This document shows, one piece after another, positions 11,822 through 19,136 of a DNA stretch of 21,727 bases (the stretch's first letter is position 1; every line of letters starts with the position of its first letter). The position numbers were made by a program, and so were the translations under genes. The notes under the pieces were generated by a model that saw nothing but the letters and a program-made list of their open reading frames with translations, ran no database searches and was not told the DNA's origin. The stretch is from a virus. The DNA lies in the IMG/VR virus record IMGVR_UViG_3300042293_000853, positions 1 to 21,727 of that record; one strand, 5' to 3'.

Positions 11822-14194
11822 TTAGTTCCTATTTTGTGTTTCACCTTTATGGTGGCCATTATCAGCTCTATTTTCAGAACGATCCCGAACACGTAAATTC
11901 TTTACATTGTTTGAACCACCATTACGAATAGCATTTTTATGATCAATATCTTTTTTAGATCCTTTTTTAACAACTCCCTTTTTGATCATCAGTTCACGTG
12001 CAGCAGTTCTTGAAGCACGTTCTTTTTTCTGCTTGGGTTTACCGTGGTAATTCTTATATTCTTTTTTATAATTTCTTAAATACTTTTCTTCTAGATTATC
12101 CGCGATGATATCTTCAAACAAAGGAATAAGATATTCTGTATTTTCAACAGTATATGCGTAAATTTTATTTAAAATTGGAATCAAACATCCAGCACGTAGA
12201 TCATCTTCTTCTAAAAGAAGAGGACCATAATGTTCAATCACATTTCTTTCCGTGTCAGAAATAATGTTAACTTTATTCAATTTGGACAATAAAAAATTAT
12301 TTGTCAAAGATTCAATAAGCATTTCATTAATAACAAAGTAATTTTCACCTAACAATTTATCCGTAACAGTTTCAGTTTTGTTTACGGGAATCTTAATTGT
12401 CTTTTTTCCAATAGTAACATAATTATACTCTATTGAATTGATATCTTCAGGTTTAAATCCAGGAAGTAAACTAGCGTTAATATCAAAAGATAGATTATCA
12501 ATTGAATTTTTAACAATTAATGAAAGTGGCTCAATAGATTTTCTATCTACAAAAAGTTTATTTGTATTCTGTGTGTCTTCTTTACCCTCAACTACGGTTT
12601 TCCACTTTTGTAAATTCTGAACAGCCGACTTTTTATAGGTGGATATGTTTGAAGTATCCATTGCAAATTCATTTTGTTTGATATCGATTGAGGCAGTTTT
12701 AGCAACCTCACTCATATAATCATCAGACATTGGAAATACACCATTGGTTGTTATAATATGGTTTGGTGCATTCTTTGGGTCAACCATACCATCACCACGT
12801 AAAGATGTTTGTAATATATTCTTAGTTAAAGAAACCAAGAATGAATTCTTTTTTCCACCTTTAAATAAATCATTACCAGCTTTTTTAATTGAACCTTCGT
12901 ATGCTGAAACAGATGCTGCAGGATTGATTTGACCATTTTGATCAATTACAAAACCTAAACTCTGTCCAGATGGAGAAAATATTTCTTGTGATTGAAATTT
13001 CTTTACTAATTCCGGATTACTAAGAATGAGTTGAATTGATTGATCAGGCAACAACTGTGGAGAAAATTTATCACCAAATGAAGTTACATCTGCTAGAAGT
13101 TTCTTAACATATGGATCTGATTTTGCAAGTTCTGGATCCATGAGTGTTTTTGTCAACGCATTACCAATAATACCTCTAACAATTTTTCCACTTTGATTTA
13201 AAGCGTTTGTGCTCATGGTAAATTCACCACCAGCAGAAATCTTGAATTTGTATTCACCACATTGTAATTCTGGAACACCATCAGAATACATACTAGAATT
13301 ACCAGATTCAACTGTAGTTAACAAATTTTGGATACACTCATCACCGATTTGTGATAGAATCTTATTTGCTTGTAAAAAAGCTGTCTTAGTAAAATCTAAA
13401 GAATTTGCTGATCCAGAAAATAATGCATTTAATTCTTGTTCACTGGCACCAGCTTTTAATTTGGCAGCAAAAATTAAAGCATTGATTACTTGTTGATTGT
13501 AAGGTAGATTTGAAGTAGTATTGATACCAAATTGGTTACTCAAAGCTTCAAAGGTAATATTATCAAATTCTGAAGATTTTTTAGGAGCTCTAATGCTCTT
13601 AAAATATTCTTGTTGCAGATCTAATGGCATAGATGCCATTTGATTGGTATCCATACCTTGCATGGCTTGCAAAATTTCTTGTTTGGATAAGCGTTTAGCT
13701 TTCTGTGGCTGTTCTTCTTTGGTTTCTGGCTCGCCCTGTTTAGTTTTTTTAGGCTTACCATCTTCTGTAGGAGTTTTAGCTTTTTTATCTTCTTTTTCTT
13801 CTGAAGCTTTTAATTCACCAAATAGTAATTTGGACGCACGAGTTTGTTCAAATTTTGGATCATTAGTAAAACTCTTTGCTTCATCTTCGGTTAATGCATC
13901 CCCTTTATTTAATTTTACATGTGTTTCTTTATTAAAAGAATCTTTAAAAATTAATTGGACTCTACCAGAAGCAGTTTTTACAGCAATAACTTCTTTTACC
14001 AATTCTCCTTTTGATTTTCTATCTCTTGGGATTTTCTTTGATCTTTCAACTCTTTTACGGGCTGCGTCTTTGGATTTATTGTTAGATGCGTTACCAGTAG
14101 CCTTTTCTTTGGCTATAGCTTCCCCAGTAGTCCTAAAGGAGTCTGAGGAAGTGCGGGAGGCTTCGGTTAACTTTAAAAGATCTTTGAAGTTCAT
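11822..14194 (-). CDS. Very large virion-type protein with C-terminal HNH nuclease-like domain, 790 aa
   Basis: The N terminus MNFKDLLKLTE11-A is a capsid-targeting-like leader with a protease-type site. Residues 35-175 are highly charged and low in complexity (KPKKTKQGEPETKEEQPQKAK). Residues 180-650 look like a large folded, mostly helical body that I do not recognise. From about 725 the protein turns basic and ends in an HNH-like domain: ERASRTAAREL, then KKDIDHKNAIRNGG with Asp751-His752, SNNVKNLRV with Asn766, and RSENR with Asn775. This D-H...N...NLR...NR pattern recurs in phage HNH proteins. I infer a packaged protein able to nick or cut DNA. GATAAATA ends 7 bases before the ATG, with no Shine-Dalgarno sequence. 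Confidence 0.75.
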   Translation of the reverse strand: MNFKDLLKLTEASRTSSDSFRTTGEAIAKEKATGNASNNKSKDAARKRVERSKKIPRDRKSKGELVKEVIAVKTASGRVQLIFKDSFNKETHVKLNKGDALTEDEAKSFTNDPKFEQTRASKLLFGELKASEEKEDKKAKTPTEDGKPKKTKQGEPETKEEQPQKAKRLSKQEILQAMQGMDTNQMASMPLDLQQEYFKSIRAPKKSSEFDNITFEALSNQFGINTTSNLPYNQQVINALIFAAKLKAGASEQELNALFSGSANSLDFTKTAFLQANKILSQIGDECIQNLLTTVESGNSSMYSDGVPELQCGEYKFKISAGGEFTMSTNALNQSGKIVRGIIGNALTKTLMDPELAKSDPYVKKLLADVTSFGDKFSPQLLPDQSIQLILSNPELVKKFQSQEIFSPSGQSLGFVIDQNGQINPAASVSAYEGSIKKAGNDLFKGGKKNSFLVSLTKNILQTSLRGDGMVDPKNAPNHIITTNGVFPMSDDYMSEVAKTASIDIKQNEFAMDTSNISTYKKSAVQNLQKWKTVVEGKEDTQNTNKLFVDRKSIEPLSLIVKNSIDNLSFDINASLLPGFKPEDINSIEYNYVTIGKKTIKIPVNKTETVTDKLLGENYFVINEMLIESLTNNFLLSKLNKVNIISDTERNVIEHYGPLLLEEDDLRAGCLIPILNKIYAYTVENTEYLIPLFEDIIADNLEEKYLRNYKKEYKNYHGKPKQKKERASRTAARELMIKKGVVKKGSKKDIDHKNAIRNGGSNNVKNLRVRDRSENRADNGHHKGETQNRN

Positions 14195-14200
14195 CTATCT

Positions 14201-14803
14201 TTATTTATCACTATTAAAATCCCCTTTATTGCTGAAAGGATTGTAAAGTATTAAATTTTTATGGCTTTTAGCTCTACCATTGCTAACTCGGTAAAGAGCC
14301 TTTGAACTTAAATTGTTATTTTTAGCAAATTCTCTAACATTATCTACAACAATTAGTTGTTTTGTGGTCATATCCTGAAACACCACTTGTTTAGTAATTG
14401 CAATCTTTTGTGGGAGGGCTTTTTTAACTTTAAAGTGGGCACCCTCGGTTGGTTTAATAGCACGTATTTCTACTGCTGTCCACCCCTTATATGTTTTACG
14501 AGTTCCATTTAAAAGATCACATATCTTTCCAGATGTCATTCCTTGTTCTTTAGCAAATTCTGCCATGTTGGTAAAGAATGTTTTTTCACCAGTATCGGCT
14601 CTCTTTAACCAATACCCGTTTTTTTCATCTTCTGGTGGAATCCATTTCCATTCTCTACCATTTTTTTTAAAAAACCCACCATGTTCTTGGGTAAATGCAG
14701 TTCTCTGGTGTAAAGCTCTGGAATTATCATTCATTTTAATCCAAAGTTTACTCCCACGAGTATTAATAATTTCTTCTAACGATTTTATTTTATGATATTC
14801 CAT
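14201..14803 (-). CDS. Two-module helix-turn-helix DNA-binding protein, homing-endonuclease-like
   Basis: The 200-aa product starts MEYHKIKSLEEIINTRGSKL, with TAGGA 6 bases before the ATG, and overlaps the end of the exonuclease gene by 14 bases. Residues 72-110 (GEKTFFTNMAEFAKEQGM, then SGKICDLLNGTRKTYKGW) and 150-186 (VDNVREFAKNNNLSSKALYRVSNGRAKSHK) are two copies of a helix-turn-helix unit. They resemble the NUMOD1-type DNA-binding modules of homing endonucleases. I see no GIY-YIG, HNH or other nuclease motif in the N-terminal 70 residues. It may be the DNA-binding remnant of a homing enzyme or a sequence-specific regulator. The early-type promoter upstream groups it with the exonuclease, not with the virion genes. 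Confidence 0.7.
   Translation of the reverse strand: MEYHKIKSLEEIINTRGSKLWIKMNDNSRALHQRTAFTQEHGGFFKKNGREWKWIPPEDEKNGYWLKRADTGEKTFFTNMAEFAKEQGMTSGKICDLLNGTRKTYKGWTAVEIRAIKPTEGAHFKVKKALPQKIAITKQVVFQDMTTKQLIVVDNVREFAKNNNLSSKALYRVSNGRAKSHKNLILYNPFSNKGDFNSDK
14202..14209 (-). promoter_or_regulatory. T4-type late promoter (GATAAATA)
   Basis: GATAAATA, one mismatch from the T4 late consensus, ends 7 bases before the ATG at 14194 and overlaps the end of the upstream gene. It lets the virion genes downstream be expressed late, independently of the exonuclease run upstream. Confidence 0.6.
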
Positions 14804-15443
14804 GGTTATTCCTATAACTAATTATTACATTTTTTAATTTCTTGACATATTTTATAGGTTTATTTTGAAATACCTGTGTCAAACCATCTTCACATGAAAT
14901 AAGAATAGCAAAGTTTTCTACAATAATTCCAGTTCTTTCCTGAAACATTAATGCATATGCTGTTGCTTGTGTAAAATAACTTTCAACATCTTGTTTTCTT
15001 TTTTCTTTACTGCTTGCTTTAAAATCTATAATGGAAAGCTTACCATCATATTCAGCGATACAATCGGTCCTTCCAGCAAGACCTAGGGTTTTAGACCATA
15101 GTGGCGTTTCAATAGCAACTATATTTTGGATTTTGTCGAGTTCTGGTTTAATTTGATTAAATAATACTTTAAAATTTGGAAGCATATTATCAAAATCAAG
15201 TATTTCATTATTTAAATAACTTTCAATTAAACTGTGTAATTTAGTACCTCTAGCAAGAACTCTTCTACTTTCTTCTGGATTTTTTCTTCTCCATTCAGCA
15301 AAAAAGTTTTGTTTATCCCATCCTACAACCGAAGTAACACTTGGAAAAATGCCACCTGGGGTTTCATAAAAGCGTTTACCATCAACGGTAACTTCTTTTA
15401 ATTTATTATCGATTTCTATTGGTTTATGTAAAAAGTTATTCAT
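14790..15443 (-). CDS. PD-(D/E)XK exonuclease, MGME1-like
   Basis: I take the ATG at 15443 (MNNFLHKPIEIDNK); a GTG at 15470 would add nine residues but lies inside the -10 box. The 217-aa product has the order expected of phage and mitochondrial MGME1/Cas4-like exonucleases. It runs FPSVTSVVGW (33-42), RGTKLHSLIE (65-74), an acidic IETPLWS (111-117) and GLAGRTDCIAEYDGKLSIIDFKAS with Asp127, Asp140 and Lys142. The final helix is YFTQATAYALMF with Gln159 and Tyr163. All core catalytic residues are present. Such enzymes degrade single-stranded DNA ends and act in replication or recombination. The sigma70-like promoter at 15461-15488 fits early expression, although the gene sits among late virion genes. 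Confidence 0.85.
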   Translation of the reverse strand: MNNFLHKPIEIDNKLKEVTVDGKRFYETPGGIFPSVTSVVGWDKQNFFAEWRRKNPEESRRVLARGTKLHSLIESYLNNEILDFDNMLPNFKVLFNQIKPELDKIQNIVAIETPLWSKTLGLAGRTDCIAEYDGKLSIIDFKASSKEKRKQDVESYFTQATAYALMFQERTGIIVENFAILISCEDGLTQVFQNKPIKYVKKLKNVIISYRNNHGIS

Positions 15444-15460
15444 GAATACACATTCTGATA

Positions 15461-15488
15461 AGTATAACACACATTATATAAATTACAA
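15461..15488 (-). promoter_or_regulatory. Sigma70-like promoter (TTGTAA, 16, TATACT)
   Basis: On the minus strand TTGTAA (15483-15488) and TATACT (15461-15466) are separated by 16 bases, the same spacer and -10 box as the early-type promoter at 6643. The expected +1 is near 15454, leaving about 11 bases before the ATG. It would make the exonuclease and helix-turn-helix genes an early unit inside the late block. Confidence 0.6.
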
Positions 15489-15494
15489 ATTTTA

Positions 15495-17108
15495 TTATCT
15501 AAGTCTAATAGTACGGGCTGTCTGGTATAAATTTTGAAGCATGGCACTAATATCACCACCCTTCATTCTTTTTTGTTCATCGTCATCATAACTTCCACGA
15601 CCACCATTATCATTTGACCCCATTGGTAAACCAGGTAAAGTTGGTGGTACTGGTCTACTTGGTTCACTTGGAAGAGTAACTTTTCCTGGTGGGGGAAGTA
15701 AACCACCTCCTCCTGGAGGAGGAGGAGTTGTTCCAAAACCTGTTGTTTGAGTTTGTTTTTGTACTACTGGGGCTTGATATGGAGCCTGTACAGGAGCTTG
15801 ATATGGATTTTGTGCTGGAATTTGAACTGGAACTTGAGCGGGAGCTTGAATTGGAGCTTGAGCTGGAGCTTGATATGGGGCTTGTGATGGAGCTTGATTA
15901 GGAATAGATGGAATAACTGTATTTAAATTAATATTAGGAGAGCTTTGATTTAAATTTACTTTATTTTGAACTATCTTTGGAGAATTTACTGGAACCGAAG
16001 TTGAAACTTGCTTTCCTCCACCAACATTTGAACCAGCACTTGATTGAGCTGGGTTTGGAGCACTTGATCTCATTGAAGTACCATATGTTGGTGCTACTTG
16101 AGTTGTTCTAGTAGCTCTTGCCACCATATCAGCCTCAACGGAACTCATTCCACTAGCAGCTGGGGCATCTAATAAACCTGTAGCCATAATTGCTGCAGTA
16201 CGAACTGGACTAGACGATGCTGCTTTAGCATATTGATTTGCTACAAAAGGAATAGCTGCCTTTGTGCCTCTAATAGCCAATCCAGGAGCTGCCATTGCTA
16301 ATGGTATAGTAGCTGAAGCTGCGGCATTACCAAAAAGTTCTGCACCGGGAGATGCTTCTGTTCCTTTAATAGTATTTTCTGCACCTTGCATCAATCTATT
16401 ATATGCAAGCATTTCCATACCACCTAATGCAGTAGCAGTTGCTGCTCTTCCAACTCCTAAAACAGATGGTTTACTGAGACCCATTGCGCGTAATGCTGAT
16501 CCTCCAACACTTTTTGCAAGTCCAGTACCAGCAGTTAATAGTAAATCGTCTTTACTATTTTGTGGGTTGTCCATATGTTTTTCATAATATTCACCAGCAT
16601 TATCTAAAAATTCACCTTGACGAATTCCTTCCCATGCAGGAGCAATTAATTTTTCATTCTTAGTATCTTTTTTACCACCAAATAAATCAGTTGCTGTTCT
16701 TGCTATCCACCCTGATTGATATCCTTGAACTCCACGTCCTGGAGCTTTTTGTGCTTCGAGTCTTCCGCTTGATCTATCTAAGATTAAAGGATTCGTAACA
16801 TCACCTGCAATATTTGAATATTCATTTCTAGTTAATAAAGAAACAGATTGTGGATCTTGATCTAAAACTGTAAGATATGCTCTATCTATATCGTTTTTGG
16901 TTATCTTAGATGCTTTACCTGTTATTGATGCAGATAATTTTGCATTTGCTTCCGCTTCTTTTTGTACTTTAGCATCAAATTCTTTTCTTAATTTTGCATA
17001 AGATCCTGAAGCAACTTTAGCTACTGGAGAATCTTCATCTTCATTCAAAATATTTTGTTGATATCTTTGTTCTAAAAGATATTTTACAATTGGATGTAGT
17101 CTACGCAT
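15495..17108 (-). CDS. Large virion-type protein with hydrophobic centre and Pro/Gln repeats, 537 aa
   Basis: AAAGGA lies 9 bases before the ATG and the gene follows the 667-aa gene by 2 bases. The N terminus has two protease-type sites, LLE13-Q and LNE23-D. A helical charged region follows, then an Ala/Gly-rich hydrophobic stretch (about 187-320). This includes LLLTAGTGLAKSVGGSALRAMG, ATATALGGMEMLAY and ASATIPLAMAAPGLAIRG, and could contain several membrane-inserting helices. Residues 404-449 are a tandem (A/V)-P-x-Q repeat and 461-495 are Pro/Gly-rich; the tail is polar with a short final helix. The architecture would suit an injected protein that interacts with the membrane, as podovirus core proteins do. 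That is inference only; I do not recognise a family. Confidence 0.7.
   Translation of the reverse strand: MRRLHPIVKYLLEQRYQQNILNEDEDSPVAKVASGSYAKLRKEFDAKVQKEAEANAKLSASITGKASKITKNDIDRAYLTVLDQDPQSVSLLTRNEYSNIAGDVTNPLILDRSSGRLEAQKAPGRGVQGYQSGWIARTATDLFGGKKDTKNEKLIAPAWEGIRQGEFLDNAGEYYEKHMDNPQNSKDDLLLTAGTGLAKSVGGSALRAMGLSKPSVLGVGRAATATALGGMEMLAYNRLMQGAENTIKGTEASPGAELFGNAAASATIPLAMAAPGLAIRGTKAAIPFVANQYAKAASSSPVRTAAIMATGLLDAPAASGMSSVEADMVARATRTTQVAPTYGTSMRSSAPNPAQSSAGSNVGGGKQVSTSVPVNSPKIVQNKVNLNQSSPNINLNTVIPSIPNQAPSQAPYQAPAQAPIQAPAQVPVQIPAQNPYQAPVQAPYQAPVVQKQTQTTGFGTTPPPPGGGGLLPPPGKVTLPSEPSRPVPPTLPGLPMGSNDNGGRGSYDDDEQKRMKGGDISAMLQNLYQTARTIRLR
15762..15899 (-). repeat. Tandem repeat coding for (A/V)PxQ units
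   Basis: The plus strand shows repeated GGAGCTTGA-like units of 12-18 bases (for example GGAGCTTGATATGG), coding on the minus strand for QAPYQAPAQAPIQAPAQVP and further copies, about residues 404-449. The short near-identical units are prone to change in copy number by slippage or recombination. Confidence 0.75.
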
Positions 17109-17110
17109 TA

Positions 17111-19114
17111 TTATTGTCCTTTACGAAGACGTTTGATTTGATCATCAATATCGTTTGTACTTCCTGGAGCAATCGAAGGTTTAGAAGTACCTGATGACAT
17201 AATATCTGACAACAATGATGTTCCATATTCAGCTGGCTGTACTGGACCAGCTACATCTGCATCACCAGCTTTTCCTGGTACTGCTCTTTGTTGTCGTCTT
17301 TCTTGTTCTCTTTTTCTACCCTGTATAGCTTGATCATCTAAGCTTCTTTGATTTTGTTCTCTTGCTCTTACATCAGCTCTACCAGCAGCAAGATTAGCAT
17401 TATCACCACCTGTTGGGGTTGGTAAGAATGGTTGTGGTGCTGCTCTTTGCTCAGTACCACCTAACATAAATGGTACCTTTGGTGCTGGTGGACCCATTTT
17501 ACCAGGTTCAATATATCCTCTAGATGGGATTCTAGTACTATTCTTTGCTAAAGATGCTGTGAGTGCAGCAGATTTATCTGAACTAGCCTGTAATCTTCCT
17601 TGATTTTCAAGAGAACCTTGTTGAACTCTTTCTTTATTAATTTGAGACATTACTTGTGGCATTACAGAAGCTTTATCTTTAGCAATCTCTTGTGCTCGAA
17701 TTTCTGGATTATTTTGGAAATCGCTTAGTGCTTGAGCAGACCTATCCATTGTACGTGTAAGTCTACCACCTTCAGCTACTCGTGCATCACTAGCATTTCT
17801 TTGCATGTTTATCATGCTATCTGTTGACCCAGCAAGATCTCTAGCTTCAGCTGAACTATATTTTCCACCCATAGCTCCAGCTTGTCTGATTACCAAAGAA
17901 CTGTCTTCTCTATTAGTAGCATCATAATCTCTACCAGTATTAGACTTAAATTCACCATAAGTCATATTGGTACCTTGAATCTTAACACCCTGCATTTTTT
18001 CTTTACGATCAGCAGCTTGTTGTGCTGCATCTGCACGATTTTGTTGATCTCTTTGAGCTACATCTCTTTTAGTAGCATCTCGAGATACATTAAATGTTGA
18101 TTCAGTATCTGCATCAAAATAGGCTTTACTTCGAGTACGGGCAGCTGCTTCTTGTGCAGCTTGTTCTGGTGTTTTATTTGCACCAGCAAGAGCATCTATG
18201 TCATCTTGCATTTGATTACCGCTACCAGAAAGCTCTGAAGAAAGAACTGGTTTACCTTGCATACCTGCAACTTTACTTCTGATACTAGATTCTAAACCTG
18301 CATTAGGTTTTGAAAGTGATCCACCTTTCATCATTATCTTTGCTAATGCTAATTCACCAGCATCTTTAGCACTTAATGTAGAAGGATCTTGATTTGAAGT
18401 TCTGTTGATAACATCAGCTAATTGTGTTGACTGTCTTTCAGTATCTCGTTTTGCTCTAAAATTTCTTAAGTTTTCTCTATTTTGTGGAGTATCGGCTGGT
18501 AAATTTGGATTCTTTGTATCCATTTGTAATTTAGCTTGATCACCAACATTACCACCACTTGGAGTAGGTCCTTGCAACATAGAATCTTCTGGCGCACTGT
18601 TATATGCTAATGCTTCATCTTCTTGTGCTCGTCGTTTATTAATCCCGCGTTGCGTTTTTCTATCTTCTTCTTGTTTATTTACAGCAGCTACATTAGCAGC
18701 GTACTGCTCAGGATTCTCATCTTTCCATGAACCCTTTCCACTATTTGATCTACGGCTAGGACCACCTGTAGATGCACCGCCACCAAATGAGCCAAATGAT
18801 TGTGCTTGTGCTTCTGTTAAGTTAAATAAATTGGATGTAATGTTAGGAGAAGACCCAACATTTCTTGGAGTTCCTTTTTTAATAGAACTTTCATTTAAAG
18901 CAATGAGTGGTAATACACTATTTTTTATATCATTTGAGATACGTGGTTGTACCAAGTCTTTGTCAACATAAAAAGGAGAATTTAATGACATAATTTTTGT
19001 AATGTCTTCCTTTAATGATGAGGCTCGTTTAACAGAATTGATGTCTGGATTCTTTGTTTTGGTTAAAAAATCCTTGACTTCCCAATAAAATAGTCTATCT
19101 TGTTTATTATCCAT
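17111..19114 (-). CDS. Very large low-complexity virion-type protein, 667 aa
   Basis: The start at 19114 gives MDNKQDRLFYWEVKDFLTK. The first 101 residues contain sites fitting the prohead protease rule at LKE36-D, LNE75-S and LTE101-A, then a Gly-rich segment. The remaining 560 residues are unusually rich in Ala, Gln, Arg, Asn, Asp, Ser and Gly, with few aromatics or long hydrophobic runs. This suggests a largely disordered or single long helical protein (AAQQAADRKEKMQ, EQAAQEAAARTRSKA, REQNQRSLDDQ). No catalytic motif is visible. A TCTAAATA box lies 10 bases upstream of the ATG. The start codon shares CCATGG with a plus-strand ATG. A core or scaffold-type role is possible, but that is inference. 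Confidence 0.7.
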   Translation of the reverse strand: MDNKQDRLFYWEVKDFLTKTKNPDINSVKRASSLKEDITKIMSLNSPFYVDKDLVQPRISNDIKNSVLPLIALNESSIKKGTPRNVGSSPNITSNLFNLTEAQAQSFGSFGGGASTGGPSRRSNSGKGSWKDENPEQYAANVAAVNKQEEDRKTQRGINKRRAQEDEALAYNSAPEDSMLQGPTPSGGNVGDQAKLQMDTKNPNLPADTPQNRENLRNFRAKRDTERQSTQLADVINRTSNQDPSTLSAKDAGELALAKIMMKGGSLSKPNAGLESSIRSKVAGMQGKPVLSSELSGSGNQMQDDIDALAGANKTPEQAAQEAAARTRSKAYFDADTESTFNVSRDATKRDVAQRDQQNRADAAQQAADRKEKMQGVKIQGTNMTYGEFKSNTGRDYDATNREDSSLVIRQAGAMGGKYSSAEARDLAGSTDSMINMQRNASDARVAEGGRLTRTMDRSAQALSDFQNNPEIRAQEIAKDKASVMPQVMSQINKERVQQGSLENQGRLQASSDKSAALTASLAKNSTRIPSRGYIEPGKMGPPAPKVPFMLGGTEQRAAPQPFLPTPTGGDNANLAAGRADVRAREQNQRSLDDQAIQGRKREQERRQQRAVPGKAGDADVAGPVQPAEYGTSLLSDIMSSGTSKPSIAPGSTNDIDDQIKRLRKGQ

Positions 19115-19136
19115 GGCTATGAAATATTTAGATTTC

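Follow-up and report, generated by a model that had tools for sequence, protein, structure and literature searches.

T4-like cyanophages encode an MGME1-type exonuclease of PHROG family 298 in a phoH-exo-gp33 cluster, where gp33 follows the exonuclease gene. NUMOD modules are parts of I-HmuI and of other HNH and GIY-YIG homing endonucleases. One such enzyme, the GIY-YIG nuclease I-TevI, shows how a homing-endonuclease part can act on transcription: its DNA-binding domain alone represses its own promoter, through an operator that overlaps a late promoter (PMC2988022). The same source describes the free-standing seg and mob genes of T4 as endonuclease genes that have their own middle or late promoters, and places the promoters of downstream genes within the inserted gene.

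Here we describe a locus in which these two kinds of parts stand side by side. It lies in a 21,727-b virus record (IMGVR_UViG_3300042293_000853, positions 1 to 21,727), which we analysed whole and call the window. An exonuclease gene (exo) of the same family and size as that of the cyanophages is followed by an overlapping gene for a predicted DNA-binding helix-turn-helix protein (HTH; Table 1). Exo of MED4-213 and S-PM2 likewise overlaps its next gene, by 14 and 23 b. Unlike in the cyanophage cluster, however, the next gene here encodes a NUMOD HTH protein, gp33 lies elsewhere (5/5 long related contigs) and the neighbours are late-type. HTH shares the module fold and a GKRKxxKG-like core with the NUMOD homing endonucleases, but it has another N-terminal domain and no nuclease domain that we could find, is fixed in its lineage and has an early-type promoter. 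In this it also differs from seg and mob, which it resembles in the placement of the downstream gene's late-type motif, here at or just after the HTH end. I-TevI is comparable in how it works only; DNA binding by HTH is predicted. Each part of the pair belongs to a known family; in the open-licence papers that we searched, we found no description of the pair and no co-mention of MGME1 with a homing endonuclease.

Table 1 Features of the exo-HTH locus in window coordinates
Feature	Position	Strand	Basis or remark
HNH-type C-terminal domain of the 790-aa protein (PHROG 4590)	11849..12085	-	HNH assigned by homology to an L190 domain
790-aa downstream gene, propeptide-like N terminus MNFKDLLKLTEA	11822..14194	-	
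NUMOD/HTH DNA-binding protein (predicted), 200 aa	14201..14803	-	
TAAATA late-promoter-like motif of the 790-aa gene	14202..14207	-	13 b before ATG, overlaps HTH stop codon
NUMOD-like module 2 of HTH, residues 133-190	14234..14407	-	Homologous to module 1
NUMOD-like module 1 of HTH, residues 62-118	14450..14620	-	Highly conserved KICELLNGKRKTYKGWTA core in relatives
Conserved N-terminal domain, HTH residues 1-57	14633..14803	-	Three helices and a beta hairpin
MGME1-like PD-(D/E)XK exonuclease (exo), 217 aa	14790..15443	-	Profile and PDB-sequence matches
AGGA Shine-Dalgarno-like site of HTH, within exo	14810..14813	-	Read from sequence
60 b upstream of exo: promoter and possible operator or leader	15444..15503	-	Conservation among close relatives
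Extended -10 element TGTTATACT of the exo promoter	15461..15469	-	
Weak -35-like hexamer TTGTAA, spacer 16	15483..15488	-	
537-aa upstream gene, no family found	15495..17108	-	Variable between relatives
CTAAATA late-type motif upstream of the 667-aa gene (17111-19114)	19125..19131	-	

Results

Judged by its relatives, the window represents part of a T4-like phage genome. We call it T4-like because a related 137-kb contig, G002, encodes a major capsid protein up to 54% identical to cyanophage gp23 together with terminase, gp32-type and RNR genes, and because gp33 (PHROG 254) is present in the long relatives, away from exo in all five. The position of HTH in the cyanophage gp33 slot raised it as a candidate replacement for the late co-activator gp33; we rejected this given that separate gp33 gene. 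Close isolates were not found, since the window's HTH protein matched only two phage records, both partially (records very near the window were possibly excluded). A single match to an 8-kb contig in genome_contigs, binned as a Chitinophagaceae MAG, is too weak to name a host. Among the window proteins scanned, none matched a PHROG head or tail family. A RuvC-like gene lies 4.5 kb and an RNR gene 5.6 kb upstream.

The exonuclease assignment is consistent across methods. The protein matches the PHROG 298 exonuclease with an E value of 3e-58 and Pfam PDDEXK_1 above cutoff, and alignment against PDB sequences (E 0.1 or better) returned four chains, all MGME1 (best 5e-19). Residues H70, D127, D140, K142, Q159 and Y163, which we take to be catalytic from the RecB/MGME1 superfamily set (H, D, D-x-K, Q-x3-Y), are invariant in 28/28 aligned exos from the window clade, cyanophages and more distant phages. 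We place the start at the ATG at 15443 and the stop at 14790; a GTG at 15470 would give a longer protein but is not conserved, an in-frame stop taking its place in L006 and L008. By these criteria, exo is an intact member of the MGME1-like family with predicted DNA exonuclease activity. The family is common: 950 of 50,697 phage records contain it, including many from T4-like cyanophages. It adjoins phoH and gp33 in the two cyanophages that we inspected; in Det7 its neighbours are a UvsY-like gene and a helicase.

Both genes lie where the original prediction had put them, and the start of HTH overlaps the exo stop by 14 b. Overlap was seen in every one of 168 loci measured (several share one contig) and spans 14 b in 111. 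Seen from the exonuclease, the association is looser: among 153 distinct exos, HTH is next to exo in 112 and near it in 4, gp33 is next in 6 and near in 5, and the remaining 26 have other surroundings. As 37 of the 153 have no HTH that we found adjoining or nearby, exo does not need HTH. The smallest clade of the exo tree that holds all HTH-linked exos (support 0.72) includes 18 without HTH, so that one gain followed by several losses or moves looks the same as several gains. In seven loci (L259, L263, L267, L268, L274, L278 and L285), an unrelated gene overlaps exo in place of HTH, and behind it stand, by eye, sugar-nucleotide/glycosyltransferase-like genes. In Sinorhizobium phage phiM7 (L245:5459-6633), the exo 5' end shares 19 b with a gene annotated as an HNH endonuclease.

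We then characterized HTH. It matches PHROG 2081 (E 1e-11) and scores 26.2 bits against the Pfam family I-HmuI_NUMOD-like (PF22083), just under the 27-bit cutoff. In the full predicted model (pLDDT 84), module 2 superposes on I-HmuI residues 117-169 (Z 6.2, rmsd 1.6, 51 residues), and modules 1 and 2 are homologues (hhalign E 5.5e-13). Nothing credible emerged from a search of the HTH profile against PDB sequences (best E 0.2). Modules of the NUMOD1 type lacking a nuclease had been predicted. Their NUMOD character and the missing nuclease family held up, but NUMOD1 itself gave no Pfam match at E 1 or better. Nor did HNH or GIY-YIG nuclease families match in Pfam at E 1, and hits of HTH to PHROG HNH-endonuclease families fall on its HTH modules.

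Six residues of the N-terminal domain (N14, W21, N25, G43, F45 and W54) are invariant among 48 aligned sequences. A nuclease hidden in this domain had been suggested as something to look for by structure prediction. Foldseek returned no PDB match below E 1 for the domain predicted alone (pLDDT 76), which is weak evidence but led us to drop this candidate. Given that result, and given that VIA-align of the full model covers mainly residues 136-189, we do not claim the domain as a new fold.

Far from decaying, HTH appears to be maintained. Of nine pairs tried for dN/dS, one proved saturated and another yielded no value; the seven close pairs scored range from 0.03 to 0.16. Together with a module 1 core that is nearly invariant among relatives, these values argue against the earlier proposal of a decayed homing enzyme. 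HTH proteins of the window clade have two modules. Shorter ones, of ~112-145 aa, combine the N-terminal domain with a single module, lacking module 2, and occur in distant relatives (L190, L247, L248, L251, L253, L254, L264, L275, L277, L279, L280 and L283). The DNA-binding modules likely descend from a homing endonuclease, and their recruitment into a fixed, early, predicted DNA-binding protein is the best explanation of the sequences that we compared.

To place the pair in its lineage, we compared gene order around relatives of each gene. Of 120 exo relatives in IMG/VR we kept the best 80, and HTH lies directly downstream of exo in all 80 loci. The best 80 of 109 HTH relatives comprised 11 loci already among these and 69 new ones, all of which contain exo. 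A profile that included the short HTH proteins retrieved 249 relatives, and exo lies upstream of HTH in each of the best 80 loci kept. Starting instead from the 790-aa downstream gene (184 relatives, 79 loci kept), the pair was carried by all 19 loci (L154-L172) that match this gene over all or most of its length. A further 57 loci (L173-L229) match only its C-terminal part; with the window's sequences as queries at 1e-4, exo and HTH appeared in L190 alone among them. We pooled the HTH proteins, counting them as distinct by sequence and dropping genes cut by a locus end or with less than 700 b upstream. In this set of 118, 114 abut exo, 4 have exo within 4 kb and 0 are without it. Gene order thus runs against the mobile insertion that the original prediction had considered, and the pair is, as far as these comparisons reach, a stable genome module of its lineage and not a recent insertion. 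Conservation of the pair in all relatives together with late expression had been named as the outcome that would speak against insertion. The pair was kept at its site in all loci examined, whereas its promoter looks early in silico.

The four loci with non-adjacent genes are L255, L284, L325 and L350. In the first three, a PHROG 455 (KWDG) type gene lies between exo and HTH, and HTH still precedes a nucleotidyltransferase-type gene, which suggests that HTH is also tied to the latter. In L350, a distance of ~1.6 kb separates the exo end from HTH, beside which we detected no HNH-type gene. In L255 (999-2201 and 2849-6959), L284, L325 and L329, we observed both the KWDG-motif protein between exo and HTH and a cytidylyltransferase-like protein after HTH, the latter in L255 with a C-terminal SET domain match.

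A sigma70-like promoter had been proposed for the pair. The predicted promoter, TTGTAA-16-TATACT at 15488-15461, ends its -10 element 17 b before the exo ATG. A scan of the window alone does not single it out (43 promoter-like sites in 10 kb versus 40.0 +/- 5.4 in shuffles, not above chance), but comparison between relatives does. The extended -10 motif TGnTATAnT occurs within 75 b upstream of exo in 35/48 non-redundant loci, compared with 0/48 on the reverse strand, 0/144 upstream of the HTH, 790-, 296-, 181-, 667- and 496-aa genes, and 0.6% of random 75-mers. Wider upstream stretches contain it in 59/86 cases for exo and 5/78 for HTH. Among 31 hand-picked distant loci, the exact extended -10 is found in 4; a sigma70 score of at least 10 of 12 is reached by 12/31, versus 1.3% of random stretches, and 19/31 fall below.

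Sequence upstream of exo is unusually conserved among close relatives. Across the 60 b before exo, seven close loci differ by 3.7%, versus 20% at exo fourfold sites; the seven include the window's twin L005 and two near-identical pairs. In pairs with fourfold differences above 0.3, the upstream 55 b differ by 49-63% when compared without gaps. The conservation, limited as it is to close relatives, could perhaps reflect constraint on promoter and leader alone. By-eye inspection for repeats identified no operator upstream of exo.

Most neighbouring genes instead have a late motif of the TATAAATA type upstream. It resembles the T4 late motif TATAAAT (PMC3037559) and the Aeh1 late-motif variant with C at -12 (PMC2988020). 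We found [CT]TAAATA upstream of the 181-aa gene in 36/44 cases, the 496-aa gene in 10/13, the 790-aa gene in 10/28, the 296-aa gene in 0/15 and exo in 6/48, with 3.5% in random stretches. The shorter TAAATA stands upstream of the 790-aa gene in 28/28 cases and of exo in 13/48 (random stretches, 6.8%). At all 24 non-redundant HTH/790 junctions TAAATA lies at -12 or -13, overlapping the HTH end in 13 and following the HTH stop in 11. These counts support, from sequence comparison, an early-type (sigma70-like) exo-HTH operon among late-type genes, as had been predicted. The accompanying claim that the pair sits between two late genes fits propeptide-like N termini and the motifs upstream of the 790-aa gene (TAAATA) and the 667-aa gene (CTAAATA), but not the 537-aa gene directly upstream of exo, which has no late motif within 100 b.

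Several further observations concern these neighbours. Gene starts at window positions 14194, 10913, 3396 and 1957 encode MNFKDLLKLTEA-, MKFKQLL-, MLSFKKFLEE- and MKTFKEYLLEA-like N termini, respectively. We take them to resemble T4 capsid-targeting propeptides, hinting that the proteins are virion-internal, and a late virion block is a plausible reading of the neighbourhood. The 537- and 667-aa genes (15495-19114) are partly or wholly unrecognizable in many relatives whose exo is 68-98% identical.

A gene with an HNH-type C terminus follows HTH in 105 of the 111 distinct HTH genes with enough downstream sequence. In the homologous domain of L190, HNH_3 scores above the Pfam cutoff. The HNH match is absent in L255, L283, L284, L346, L350 and L378; L255 has a SET-like C terminus (Pfam) instead, and in L346 and L378 the large downstream gene is broken into pieces. 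The domain in the 790-aa protein (PHROG 4590) has relatives in 29 phage records, including proteins of Vibrio phage ICP2.

Discussion

We tentatively propose, at somewhat less than an even chance, that exo and HTH form a fixed early operon in which the NUMOD protein limits the exonuclease as an autorepressor. A host-sigma70-type RNA polymerase would transcribe both genes from the predicted extended -10 promoter while the flanking genes wait for T4-type late promoters. With HTH translated from a start inside the exo end, presumably by coupling, both proteins would be made together. Exo, by family a DNA exonuclease of the MGME1 kind, might process ends in recombination or replication, or help to break down host DNA. 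HTH would bind at a defined sequence, most likely within the conserved region that surrounds its own promoter, and shut the exonuclease off before progeny DNA accumulates; the second module of the window clade may strengthen or lengthen the recognized site.

Four points favour autorepression over other roles. A nuclease capable of attacking phage DNA as it replicates must be limited in time, the order of the two genes suits such a limit (enzyme first, DNA-binder second), the 60 b upstream of exo are unusually conserved among close relatives, and the I-TevI DNA-binding domain is a known autorepressor (PMC2988022). The early synthesis of the pair, the binding by HTH and its purpose are all things that we infer. 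Our analysis makes autorepression of the exonuclease the most likely role for HTH, with a part as its targeting partner possible.

That second role is the main rival of autorepression. NUMOD modules would here target or load exo, bringing it to particular sites in phage or host DNA. The tight linkage of HTH to exo (114/118 distinct HTH proteins adjoining it, none without exo within 4 kb), the gene overlap and the shared early-type promoter all speak for such a partnership. Yet other sequence separates the two genes in L255, L284, L325 and L350, and 37/153 distinct exos have no HTH found nearby, and we regard targeting as unlikely. HTH could alternatively look downstream and serve as the DNA-binding subunit for the nuclease of the HNH-tailed, late-type and possibly virion-internal protein. 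It is favoured by the presence of this gene behind HTH in 105/111 cases, by the HNH_3 match in L190 and by L255, L284 and L325, in which exo is displaced yet HTH keeps its place before a nucleotidyltransferase-type gene. The two promoters nevertheless belong to different classes, early and late, and the HNH match is missing in 6/111, which leaves this reading decidedly unlikely. The near-constant HNH-tailed neighbour also motivates a broader idea, to us a long shot: a three-part DNA-attack system of early exonuclease, early NUMOD specificity protein and late, virion-internal HNH nuclease. If it were true, the virion would deliver the HNH nuclease, the NUMOD protein would direct it to the DNA of competitors or the host, and the cut DNA would fall to the exonuclease; a homing endonuclease would in effect have been dismantled and redeployed as a weapon.

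HTH might instead regulate the surrounding late genes and leave exo alone, for example by silencing the neighbouring late promoter early in infection. The fixed position of TAAATA at -12 or -13 in 24/24 junctions, overlapping the HTH end in 13, would suit such control. T4-type late promoters, however, need late factors of their own, and with gp33 present an extra late repressor is not required; we consider this role highly improbable. Recent acquisition of exo-HTH as a mobile insertion, with HTH a decayed homing endonuclease, could appeal to the origin of NUMOD modules as homing-endonuclease parts, to the annotated HNH endonuclease gene overlapping exo in phiM7 and to the pair's own promoter. 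We reject it: none of the 80 exo loci or 19 downstream-gene loci has an empty site, 114/118 HTH proteins keep their adjacency, HTH is under purifying selection and exo is widespread, so that within the window clade insertion is already contradicted by synteny and very improbable. The endonuclease-specific promoters of T4 moreover are middle (5) or late (2), with none early (PMC2988022).

Whichever role HTH plays, homing-endonuclease DNA-binding modules have here become fixed as a conserved partner gene in which we detect no nuclease. The T4-like lineage that carries it lacks close relatives in the phage records that we searched, and the gene belongs to an early-type operon held among late-type genes. 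This makes testable the idea of an early exonuclease throttled or aimed by a domesticated selfish-element domain.

A last observation concerns the late-type motif TAAATA, for which a distance of 11-13 b to a following ATG is favoured, both in the window (14202-14207) and in contigs G002 and G004 (L230-L242). In G002, 16 ATGs lie at a spacing of 11 and 8 at 12, with 0-7 at the other spacings from 6 to 40; in G004, 13 lie at 11 and 10 at 12, with 0-9 at others. Assuming that T4 spacing applies, the 5' ends of late transcripts would coincide with the start codon or lie directly beside it, and the late mRNAs of these phages are possibly leaderless.
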